This document shows, in pieces, positions 4,028-7,624 of a stretch of DNA of 64,000 nucleotides. The translations under genes were made by a program, and so were the position numbers. The notes under the pieces were generated by a model, which was given only the letters and a program-made list of their open reading frames with translations, made no database searches and was not told where the DNA came from. This DNA comes from Hyphomonadaceae bacterium (GTDB lineage Bacteria > Pseudomonadota > Alphaproteobacteria > Caulobacterales > Hyphomonadaceae). Every line of letters starts with the position of its first letter. The first letter of the stretch is position 1. The stretch covers positions 1 through 64,000 of the forward strand of contig CANJIL010000009.1 in assembly GCA_947474455.1 (NCBI GenBank), in the 5' to 3' direction.

Positions 4028-4075
4028 TTGACTTCCCGGATTACAGCCGTACTCTCCAATGAGATTACAGGTGTA
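4028..4075 (+). promoter_or_regulatory. Promoter with two BlaI-type operators
   Basis: A TTGACT -35 element (4028-4033) is followed at normal spacing by a weak -10 (TACTCT, 4050-4055). Two sites of the BlaI/MecI form TACANNTGTA are present: TACAGCCGTA at 4042-4051 with one mismatch, overlapping the spacer and -10, and a perfect TACAGGTGTA at 4066-4075, directly before the blaI start. They are spaced 24 bp start to start. The layout predicts autorepression of the downstream operon by its own BlaI protein. Confidence 0.75.
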
Positions 4076-4077
4076 CC

Positions 4078-4452
4078 ATGCAATCGATTTCCGACGCCGA
4101 AAGCCGCATCATGGAAGCCCTGTGGCGCAAGACACCGCTCACGGCCGAACAGATTTACGCCGCAGTAGGCCCCGAAAATGGCTGGGCGCCCGCCACGGTG
4201 AAGACGCTGGTCACTCGGCTGCTCAAGAAGAAAGCCATAGCCGGGGCCAAGGAAGGCGACAGCTACCGCTATCGCCCGCTCATCACACGCGCCTCCTGGG
4301 TGCAGTCCGAAAGCCAGGGACTGCTCGACAAGCTTTTCAAGGGCGAAGTCGCCCCACTTGTCGCCCACTTTGCCGAGCACCGTAAGCTTTCGGCCAAGGA
4401 CCTGAAACAGCTCAAGGCCCTGATCACGAAGATCGATGAGGACAGCAAATGA
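4078..4452 (+). CDS. blaI: BlaI/MecI/CopY-family repressor
   Basis: The 124-residue product starts with the classic BlaI opening (SDAESRIMEALWRKTPLTAEQIYAAV), a winged-helix domain with recognition segment WAPATVKTLVTRLLKKK, then the wing GDSYRYRPLI and a C-terminal dimerisation helix. Proteins of this family repress beta-lactamase or cell-wall stress genes and are inactivated by cleavage when a partner M56 membrane peptidase is triggered. The partner gene follows with a 4-base ATGA overlap at 4449-4452, and two BlaI-type operators precede this gene. Confidence 0.93.
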   Translation: MQSISDAESRIMEALWRKTPLTAEQIYAAVGPENGWAPATVKTLVTRLLKKKAIAGAKEGDSYRYRPLITRASWVQSESQGLLDKLFKGEVAPLVAHFAEHRKLSAKDLKQLKALITKIDEDSK

Positions 4453-5678
4453 ACGGCATCCTCGACGCCCTCGTCGAAATGAACATAGCGGCAAGCGCCG
4501 CGATTCTTGTCCTGCTGCTGGTCCGCAAGCCAGTCGGCCGCCATCTGGGACCAGACGCCGCCTATCTGCTCTGGGTGATCGTTCCCATCGTGGTCGCCTC
4601 AACCTTCATCCCCGCCCGCGCCATCGAGACCATGGCGCTCGGCCCGTCGCTCGAGGAAGTCGTCGCCCTTGCAAACGCTCCATCTGTTGTCCCTGGCTGG
4701 GAAATCTTCATTGCTCCCGCCCTACTCTCTATCTGGATTGCCGGCGCCATCGCGATCGGCGCAGCGCTCATTCGCCGCCAGCGCGCCTTCATGCGCGATG
4801 CGGATCTCGGCCTTGCAGGCCCCGCCGTCGTCGGCTTCTCGTATCAGCACATCGTCACGCCCCGGGATTTCGCCCGCCGGTTCGGCGACGATGAGCGCAG
4901 GCTGATCCTGACGCACGAACAGGTCCATCTCGACCGCAACGACGCCCGCATCAATGCGCTCGTCGCGCTCGCCCGCTGCCTCTTCTGGTTCAACCCGCTG
5001 ATCCATGTAGGCGCGAAGGCTCTCCGCCTCGACCAGGAAATGTCCTGCGACGCCGAGGTCATCGACCGCCGCCCCCGCACGCGTCGCGCGTATGCCGAAA
5101 CGCTGCTGCGGACGCAACTCGCCTCCCGTCCGCTCCCCGTCGGCTGCTACTGGCCTGCCGAATCGCAGCACCCGCTTGCCGAACGCATCGGCATGCTGGC
5201 GAACATGCCGCTCTCCGGCGCGCGCCGCGCCGCCGCCACGGCAATCGTGCTCGTCGCCGCCGCCGGCGCCGGCTTCGCCGCCTGGGCCGCCCAGCCCCAG
5301 CGCACCATCCTTCACGAAGCGCCCGACGTGTTCGTGCCATTCCAGCCACTGCATCGCGCCAGTCTCACGACGCAGCCGCATCTCTCCGACTTCGCACTGC
5401 CCGCTATTCCCACTGGCCTCAGCCTGCCTGGCGGCGTCGAGGTCGGCGCCGATCTCTGCGTTGGCAGAAGCGGCAGGGTCGAAAGCGTCCAGCTTATGAA
5501 ATCGGCTGGCTATCGCCACTTCGACAAGGCGGCGATCGACGCGCTCCGCGGCTCGCGCTTCCAGCCGGCCATGCATGACGGACGGGCCATTCGCGGCTGC
5601 GGCCATCCAGTCATGATTGCGTGGAGTCTCGGGCCCGCTGCCGTGAATACGGAACCGGCGGCGCCCGGGGCGCGCTAG
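4449..5678 (+). CDS. BlaR1-like M56 membrane metallopeptidase with C-terminal TonB domain
   Basis: The 409-residue protein has several N-terminal membrane helices, then the M56 zinc motif HEQVH (LTHEQVHLDRND, residues about 154-165) with a downstream glutamate in DQEMSCDAEVI. Another hydrophobic segment near residues 255-280 (AATAIVLVAAAGAGFAAWA) leads to a periplasmic part. Instead of the penicillin-binding domain of BlaR1, the last 90 residues are a TonB C-terminal-like domain (GRVESVQLMKSAGYRHFDKAAIDALRGSRFQP). It probably senses an envelope signal and cleaves BlaI. The gene overlaps blaI by four bases and is followed by a second TonB-domain gene. Confidence 0.88.
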   Translation: MNGILDALVEMNIAASAAILVLLLVRKPVGRHLGPDAAYLLWVIVPIVVASTFIPARAIETMALGPSLEEVVALANAPSVVPGWEIFIAPALLSIWIAGAIAIGAALIRRQRAFMRDADLGLAGPAVVGFSYQHIVTPRDFARRFGDDERRLILTHEQVHLDRNDARINALVALARCLFWFNPLIHVGAKALRLDQEMSCDAEVIDRRPRTRRAYAETLLRTQLASRPLPVGCYWPAESQHPLAERIGMLANMPLSGARRAAATAIVLVAAAGAGFAAWAAQPQRTILHEAPDVFVPFQPLHRASLTTQPHLSDFALPAIPTGLSLPGGVEVGADLCVGRSGRVESVQLMKSAGYRHFDKAAIDALRGSRFQPAMHDGRAIRGCGHPVMIAWSLGPAAVNTEPAAPGAR

Positions 5679-5705
5679 ACCATCGATCCGCTGAAGGAGG
5701 CCGCC

Positions 5706-6338
5706 ATGTATGGCGCAGTGAGAGAGCGTGCGCGTAGTTCATCCCAGATCGTGGGACTTTCATCCTCGATCCTTCTGACCACCATCGCCGGCTACGCGCT
5801 CAGCAGCCTAGGCGTCAACATCGTGAGCGTCGTCGACAAGCCCATCAGCTTCACGCCGCTGGCCGAAGACAAGGCCGACGAACCGCTTGTGCCGCCGGAT
5901 TTGCGGCTCCAGCCGATCGACTTCGGCGACATCGAGATCGTGGCTCCAGACAATGTCTTCCGTGTGGAAGATGACAACCGCATCGTCGCTGCAGAAACGA
6001 CCGCGCCCATTTCCGATCGAGCCGACGCGCCCGCGCCCACATGTCCCACGCCCGTCCGCGTCCGCCCAGCGCTGCTGAGCCCGAACCCGCCGCACTATCC
6101 GGCCGCCGAAATCCGCCAGCAGAACGAAGGCGTGACAACGCTTGAGGTCTGTGTCGATGCGAATGGCCGCACGTCTTCCGCAACAGTGGCCGCCTCCAGC
6201 GGCCACCCCGTCCTCGACAACACCGCCTTGAAATGGATCCGCGCCGCCCGCTTCAAGCCCGGCACGCTCGACGGCGCCGCCCAGTCCGTGTGCGGCCACC
6301 AAGTCGTTTACGAATGGAGGCTCGAAAACACGCGCTGA
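5706..6338 (+). CDS. TonB-family protein
   Basis: The 210-residue protein has a polar N-terminus, one membrane segment (residues about 14-40), an acidic and proline-containing linker, and a TonB C-terminal domain (PPHYPAAEIRQQNEGVTTLEVCVDANGRTSS, then VLDNTALKWIRAARFKPG). A GAAGGAGG ribosome site stands at 5693-5700. It lies 27 bases behind the M56 gene, so it is likely the third gene of a BlaI-controlled operon. Whether it energises an outer-membrane transporter or only uses the fold for protein contacts is not clear. Two cysteines (CVDANG and VCGHQ) also occur in the M56 protein's TonB domain, suggesting a shared disulfide. Confidence 0.85.
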   Translation: MYGAVRERARSSSQIVGLSSSILLTTIAGYALSSLGVNIVSVVDKPISFTPLAEDKADEPLVPPDLRLQPIDFGDIEIVAPDNVFRVEDDNRIVAAETTAPISDRADAPAPTCPTPVRVRPALLSPNPPHYPAAEIRQQNEGVTTLEVCVDANGRTSSATVAASSGHPVLDNTALKWIRAARFKPGTLDGAAQSVCGHQVVYEWRLENTR

Positions 6339-6625
6339 CGCGCTCAGTTCAAGCCCTGCCCCAGCAAGGCAGGGCGTGCCGGACCGCCAGGACGCCCCAC
6401 GTTCCGGCCGGCATTCGAAGCGCACCCTTCCCGCTCCCCCGGGGAGGGGGCGCTTCTGCTCTTCGATCAAGGCTTTTCACCACGCCCGCGCATGCGTGTT
6501 GCGCCGCAGCCCGGCAGGAAATGCCGATCGGAAAAGCCTGTCACAGGCATCTCGCCGCATGGAGATTCACTCGCGGGCAATCCGTGTTCACGAGTCAGAA
6601 ACACAGCGGCGGCATTTTCATCGGC

Positions 6626-7624
6626 ATGGTACAGCGTGATTACACTTGGTCATCGATCTTCGCCTGGGGCCTGACCCTTTCCGGCGCCGTACTGGCGACG
6701 GGCGGCGTCATCGGCATGTTCTGGCCGCAGCTGGACATCAGCTGGCTGTGCATTATCGCCTTCGCGGGCATGATGGCGTTCGGCATCGGACTCGTTAACT
6801 GTTCAGCCGCCGGCGCCCTGCAGGCGATCAAGCACCGCAAGCCTGACGGCCGTCAGGTGGAATGGACAGTTCTGCTGCCCGCCCTCGCCTGCTGCATCGG
6901 CTTTGTGTTCGCCACCAATGTCGGCGTCCACCTCGGATGGGAGATCGTGATCGCCAACGCGCCCGAGGGCGCGAAGCTGCCGCCGGCCATGACGGTCGAC
7001 GCCGTGTTCTACATCTTCGCCTTCGCCAAGCCCGCCATGGCCTGGATCGTCGAGGGCCGCAAAGCCATGGACGTCGAAAGTTACGCCGCTCATCGCGCGT
7101 CGCGCCGGCAGGAAGCCGCCGAGCTCGCGGAAGCGGAAATGATCCGCACGGAATTCGCACGGGCTGCAGTCCAGCCTCAGCCCGAGCCGGAGCCGGAGCC
7201 CGCGTCCGATACCGTGGAACCGGCGGCCCCGGCCGCCGAAACGTCAGCGGCCGCTGCGCAGCCTGTGCAGGAGACTATCCAGCAGGCTGTAGCGGAAACA
7301 CCTGCGGCGCGCGCGCCCAAGTCGAAGCGCAAGCCGAAGACCGTCGAAGAACAACGCGCCGCCGCGATGAAGGCCGCCGCCAAGCGCGTCGCGCAGTATC
7401 GCGAGCAACACATGGGCCGCGTCACCGACATCGAGCAGGCGCGGCTAGAGCAGTCGCTGACCCCCCAGCAGATCGCACGCGCCTGCGACACGCTGATCGC
7501 GCGCGGCGAAAAGCCGACGATGCGCCGCGTGGCGGAAGTTCTGGGCGTATCGCAAATCCGAATCGAGCGCGTCTGGCCGCAGGGCGTCCCGCTCGACGGC
7601 ACGGGCGAAGTGCGGGCGGCTTGA
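6626..7624 (+). CDS. Multi-pass membrane protein with charged C-terminal tail and HTH-like end
   Basis: The ATG at 6626 starts a 332-residue protein with four hydrophobic segments in the first 150 residues (about 10-32, 38-60, 73-95, 115-140). A Pro/Glu/Ala-rich linker follows (residues about 175-230, including a PEPEPEP run), then a lysine/arginine-rich stretch and an end resembling a helix-turn-helix (ARGEKPTMRRVAEVLGVSQIRIERVW). The combination suggests a membrane-anchored nucleic-acid-binding protein, but no named family is recognised. The 287 bases upstream hold only GC-rich hairpins. The frame is open further upstream, but codon use there is poor. Confidence 0.65.
   Translation: MVQRDYTWSSIFAWGLTLSGAVLATGGVIGMFWPQLDISWLCIIAFAGMMAFGIGLVNCSAAGALQAIKHRKPDGRQVEWTVLLPALACCIGFVFATNVGVHLGWEIVIANAPEGAKLPPAMTVDAVFYIFAFAKPAMAWIVEGRKAMDVESYAAHRASRRQEAAELAEAEMIRTEFARAAVQPQPEPEPEPASDTVEPAAPAAETSAAAAQPVQETIQQAVAETPAARAPKSKRKPKTVEEQRAAAMKAAAKRVAQYREQHMGRVTDIEQARLEQSLTPQQIARACDTLIARGEKPTMRRVAEVLGVSQIRIERVWPQGVPLDGTGEVRAA

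Follow-up and report, generated by a model that had tools for sequence, protein, structure and literature searches.

A BlaI-type repressor and an M56 protease with a TonB C-terminal domain as a candidate switch over auxiliary TonB and ExbD genes

The window analyzed here, by which we mean the whole stretch of 64,000 nt from a Hyphomonadaceae bacterium (GCA_947474455.1, contig CANJIL010000009.1, positions 1-64,000, forward strand), contains an operon consisting of blaI, a gene for an M56 membrane protease that ends in a TonB C-terminal domain, and a gene for a further TonB-family protein. We consider it probable that this operon encodes a proteolytic switch of the BlaI/BlaR1 type, redirected to the Ton system, where it would control an auxiliary TonB/ExbD pair. 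The operator that precedes blaI also precedes an unlinked, stand-alone exbD paralogue and a DUF4349 lipoprotein gene, and a role in the Ton system is therefore more likely than the first-pass annotation of this DNA could have known.

Uptake of nutrients across the outer membrane draws its power from the TonB-ExbD machine. In our judgment, and to our knowledge, how the supply of TonB-ExbB-ExbD motors is matched to many TonB-dependent receptors is little understood. In C. crescentus, 66 TonB-dependent receptors stand beside two ExbD proteins (PMC12864828). A repressor-protease pair with a TonB domain, placed over TonB and ExbD paralogues, would offer a concrete and testable circuit, and it suggests that swapping the sensor domain can rewire the BlaR1 design.

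The operon and the operators before blaI

The first gene, blaI (4078-4452, + strand, 124 aa), encodes a repressor of the BlaI/MecI type. Its residues 4-117 match the Pfam family Penicillinase_R (PF03965, E 7.7e-34), which takes in both the winged helix and the dimer tail, and residues 3-118 align with MecI (1sd6, E 2e-15). In this alignment F97 falls on the phenylalanine of LVLNF in MecI and BlaI, the P1' residue of the site at which these repressors are cleaved (PMC9834060). As the first-pass annotation had described, the end of blaI overlaps the gene of the M56 (BlaR1-type) protease (4449-5678, + strand, 409 aa) by four bases, ATGA, and a second TonB-domain gene follows (5706-6338, + strand, 210 aa). 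The product of the latter has a C-terminal TonB_C domain (PF03544, E 5.1e-16) and an N-terminal hydrophobic segment that, by eye, resembles that of the housekeeping TonB. Its reading frame begins 27 bp after the M56 stop codon and is preceded by AAGGAGG, and a terminator search of the + strand over 6338-6700 gave none. Upstream of the operon lies a gene for a small SET-domain protein (2523-2960, - strand, PF00856, E 4.6e-24), to which we saw no link.

A promoter-like element, TTGACT-16 bp-TACTCT, stands before blaI at 4028-4055 (+ strand); a generic promoter scan did not call it, and the pattern TTGACN-16-TANNYT is kept in all 12 genus genomes with a complete blaI. Two putative operators on the + strand accompany it. 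O1 (ATTACAGCCGTACT, 4040-4053), whose core TACAGCCGTA at 4042-4051 has 7/8 arm bases, sits behind the -35-like TTGACT (4028-4033) and overlaps the -10-like TACTCT (4050-4055). O2 (ATTACAGGTGTACC, 4064-4077) has a perfect TACANNTGTA core at 4066-4075, which ends 2 bp before the blaI ATG and is the only exact TACANNTGTA in the 64 kb, against 0.01 expected by shuffling. An earlier claim of two TACANNTGTA operators was thus slightly overstated: it stands for O2 and not for O1, which matches in seven arm bases of eight. The O1/O2 pair thus sits where a repressor classically binds.

To see how far this arrangement is conserved, we compared 15 genomes of the genus, host included. The set of blaI, M56 and TonB genes is complete in 12/15 and cut by a contig end in one (G103, where the M56 end and the TonB gene lie on a broken contig); in the remaining two, G094 and G101, both BlaI and the M56-TonB part of the operon are missing. 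Wherever the operon or its end is present (13/13), the TonB gene follows the M56 gene. O1 precedes O2 upstream of blaI in 12/12 genomes with a complete blaI, with 6-8 of the eight arm bases matched in O1 and with O2 perfect and near the start; the two are spaced by 24 bp in 10 of the 12. Outside this sample, two Kordiimonas loci (L190, 5561/5595, and L192, 5567/5601) have a pair of TTACANNTGTAAA operators upstream of blaI, with a spacing of 34 bp; the M56 protein there carries ankyrin-like repeats, as recognized by eye.

The M56 protease and its TonB-type domain

The second gene product matches Peptidase_M56 (E 7.2e-58) and, at its C-terminal end, TonB_C (E 2.6e-9) in Pfam. The latter domain is encoded at 5448-5603 (+ strand; E 6.6e-10). 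In HEQVH (156-160) and E197xxxD201, the residues H156, E157, H160, E197 and D201 are invariant in 12 M56 sequences, and these motifs match the HEXXH and EXXXD of BlaR1 (PMC9834060). An AlphaFold2 model built from the 12 sequences is weak overall (mean pLDDT 65.8). It shows long helices at 2-33, 35-51, 83-119 and 257-280 and is better in the C-terminal domain, where ten-residue blocks reach about 73-86. A Foldseek search paired this domain with the TonB C-terminal domain 1u07 (E 7.8e-4, target TM-score 0.79), and the model also matched BlaR1 (8exs, E 0.012).

Within Pfam, the protein matched M56 and TonB_C-type families only, with no penicillin-binding or transpeptidase family up to E 10. Two statements of the first-pass annotation, that the protein ends in a TonB-like domain and that the beta-lactam sensor domain of BlaR1 is missing, are therefore borne out, and without a penicillin-binding sensor domain the protein is not a BlaR1 in the strict sense. 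Given that a TonB domain replaces the penicillin sensor, the sensor domain is unlikely to bind a beta-lactam, which supports the annotation's further suggestion that the signal is probably something else. The annotation also proposed that the sensor and the neighbouring TonB protein may share a partner in the envelope, which we treat as conjecture. Nor does the protein have the membrane anchor and proline-rich spacer of a TonB; since its TonB_C domain lies behind an M56 membrane domain, we regard it as a TonB-domain protein and not as an energy transducer. The cysteines of the TonB domain, considered as a special clue, were discarded because an equivalent pair is present in the host's housekeeping TonB.

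TonB_C was found by Pfam in 11 of the 12 complete M56 proteins of the genus and in the G103 fragment. The M56 protein of G099 has lost the domain, and that genome retains both the operon and the operator at exbD. At G099, L105:897-3392, a BlaI-linked M56 protease is fused to an M23 peptidase domain, another exchanged periplasmic domain within the same genus. We also considered whether the fusion of M56 and TonB_C might be unique and rejected this idea, because such fusions occur elsewhere in the phylum: when 397 of its genomes were drawn, four of the 29 best-scoring M56 loci had one, and there is another in a Phenylobacterium MAG. In a plasmid collection, 15 records had M56 matches, none of which covered 80% of the query.

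Unlinked operators and the predicted regulon

The host genome (3.29 Mb) contains four TACANNTGTA sites, all of them 2-47 bp before start codons: 2 bp before blaI, 47 bp before the stand-alone exbD, and 18 bp before both a DUF4349 lipoprotein gene and a gene for an OmpR-type response regulator. Near-miss host sites (TACANNNGTA, 25 rows at 21 places) were screened for downstream reading frames and gave no further convincing target. A housekeeping cluster in the host also encodes TonB and two ExbD proteins, so the tonB and exbD under predicted BlaI control are extra copies.

The stand-alone exbD is present in 11 genus genomes, mostly close to a gene that, by eye, looks like exonuclease III; the operon occurs without a match to it in G098 and G102. 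An operator with at least 7/8 arm bases lies within 130 bp upstream of this exbD in 10 of the 11 (7 perfect, 3 with 7/8) and upstream of the housekeeping exbD in 0/15, counts that are not independent trials since the genomes are related. As a background, random 130-bp stretches of the window, operators excluded, reach 7/8 in 0.74% of cases. The operator stands 42-53 bp before the start in nine genomes and 81 bp before it in G099; the one exbD with no operator within 130 bp upstream is that of G093. In 9 of the 10 operators, 30/36 flank positions are self-complementary, versus 27% expected, and the flanks keep this self-complementarity even as centre and flank bases vary between genomes.

The stand-alone ExbD also has a characteristic sequence. 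A CxxC motif just after the membrane helix, in the part predicted to be periplasmic, is found in 8 of 10 aligned proteins and a CxxxC in one more (G099); the ExbD of G093, the only one whose gene lacks an operator, has no cysteine at this place. Because the G100 gene runs over two reading frames, its ExbD was excluded from the alignment. Neither motif appears in any of the 14 housekeeping ExbD proteins aligned.

At the DUF4349 gene, the site is present in 9/15 genus genomes (7 perfect, 2 with one mismatch), a count that takes in G096, where the gene start lies on a separate contig. Four of the six genomes without it have BlaI (G092, G093, G095 and G099). The other two are the BlaI-less G094 and G101, which lack the M56-TonB genes, the stand-alone exbD and the DUF4349 site altogether; these two look like close relatives, and their joint absence may be one event. 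Among the 15 genomes, the response-regulator site was recognized in the host only. At L123 (G000:C10), site 3164, TACAGCTGTA lies 18 bp before an OmpR-type response regulator gene, which is followed by a 499-aa reading frame and adjoined by a gene for an EF-hand-like protein (named by eye).

Altogether, the 15 genomes contain 68 perfect sites, 38 of which we assigned by reading to blaI (all classes), exbD, DUF4349 or the response regulator, while about 30 have no recognized target. No beta-lactamase or PBP gene was recognized, by eye, next to any operator. The host has a single BlaI gene, and most of the other genus genomes have further BlaI paralogues. A second class of BlaI occurs in seven genomes (L063, L067, L074, L078, L081, L101 and L104), where the operator mostly has the form GCTACANNTGTAGC and, at the loci looked at, the M56 protein is longer.

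On the strength of the sequence comparisons, we regard the predicted BlaI regulon as well supported. As far as we searched, the conserved unlinked operators at exbD and DUF4349 and the CxxC-bearing ExbD are new; a search covering part of the literature recognized no report that ties BlaI or M56 proteins to the control of TonB or ExbD.

The proposed switch, its alternatives and known systems

We propose that BlaI dimers would repress their own operon from O1 and O2, and likewise the unlinked stand-alone exbD and, in most genomes, the DUF4349 lipoprotein gene. The M56 protein would be a four-helix gluzincin of the inner membrane whose active site faces the cytoplasm and whose TonB C-terminal domain extends into the periplasm. 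A signal received there by that domain would activate the protease, which would then cut BlaI before F97, and the loss of BlaI would allow the auxiliary TonB and ExbD to be made and to partner the housekeeping ExbB. What the TonB_C domain most probably senses is the condition of the Ton machinery, through engaged TonB-dependent receptors or ExbD, and this is the least certain step of the scheme. More tentatively, it is possible that the domain is a decoy for sampling TonB-dependent receptors or ExbD, such that the cell gauges the load or failure of the Ton motor, destroys BlaI and installs a second TonB together with the CxxC-bearing ExbD. If this were true, the operon would form a homeostatic circuit for the Ton motor.

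Alternatively, and in our estimate this is unlikely, the system could be a general envelope-stress switch. The TonB_C domain would then do no more than provide an anchor in the periplasm or bind a partner for a signal of peptidoglycan damage, metal or redox state, and TonB, ExbD, DUF4349 and the two-component system would form a broad envelope response. Such a response could accommodate the DUF4349 lipoprotein and the OmpR-type regulator with its following second reading frame in the host regulon, the survival of the circuit in G099 without TonB_C, and the M56 proteins elsewhere that end in ankyrin or M23 domains or have no further known domain at the C-terminus; the CxxC of the regulated ExbD, too, could mean redox or metal. 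However, the response-regulator site is confined to the host among the genomes compared, and both the constant presence of a TonB gene behind the M56 gene and the standing of exbD as the most regularly controlled unlinked gene point to the Ton system. Given that the sensor is of the TonB type and that the tonB and exbD genes belong to the same machine, we favor a signal from the state of the Ton system over a general envelope signal.

We think it very unlikely that another regulator that binds TACANNTGTA owns the exbD and DUF4349 operators and that the window operon regulates only itself. The BlaI paralogues of most genus genomes, one class of which has its own operator form, would supply candidates for such a regulator, but the host has only the BlaI of the window, the host sites share the same core, and the exbD sites resemble the window operators in having the ATTACANNTGTAAT form instead of the GC-flanked one. 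Least probable of all is a response to beta-lactams or cell-wall antibiotics of the classical BlaR1 kind in which the ligand would be sensed indirectly: the BlaI and M56 families, the cleavage-site phenylalanine and the dual operator are all classical, yet the M56 protein has no penicillin-binding domain and the operators have no recognized beta-lactamase or PBP gene beside them.

The reading that we prefer, a proteolytic switch over auxiliary TonB and ExbD genes, can be set beside several known systems. BlaI/MecI operators are palindromes of TACA/TGTA, and sites of this kind are present here too. With BlaI-BlaR1 and MecI-MecR1 of Staphylococcus and Bacillus, the operon shares the repressor-protease pair, the HEXXH and EXXXD motifs and the phenylalanine of the cleavage site (PMC9834060). 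It differs from them in its sensor, which is TonB_C and not a penicillin-binding domain, and in its predicted targets, which are TonB and ExbD genes and not blaZ or mecA. The BlaI regulon of Mycobacterium tuberculosis (Rv1846c) similarly extends beyond beta-lactamase to unlinked genes, including those of an energy machine (PMC12565901, citing Sala 2009), although the targets named there are ATP synthase and division genes, with no TonB system among them. The BlaI regulons of Clostridium thermocellum are likewise small, with paired inverted repeats and self-regulation, but have another motif and other targets (PMC8457756).

The M56-TonB_C fusions of other Pseudomonadota have the same two domains, and G332, a phylum-level relative outside the genus, also has a dual-operator layout before blaI like that of the window. 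Unlike in our genus, the four fusion genomes checked there had no site at exbD, and two of them contained three TTACANNTGTAA sites in total; the literature searched gave no function for these fusions. In cell-surface signaling of the FecA/FecR/FecI type, a receptor signals to an anti-sigma factor. There, too, regulated proteolysis ties gene control to TonB-dependent transport (PMC7593790), whereas in the present case the protease partner of a repressor itself carries a TonB-like domain.
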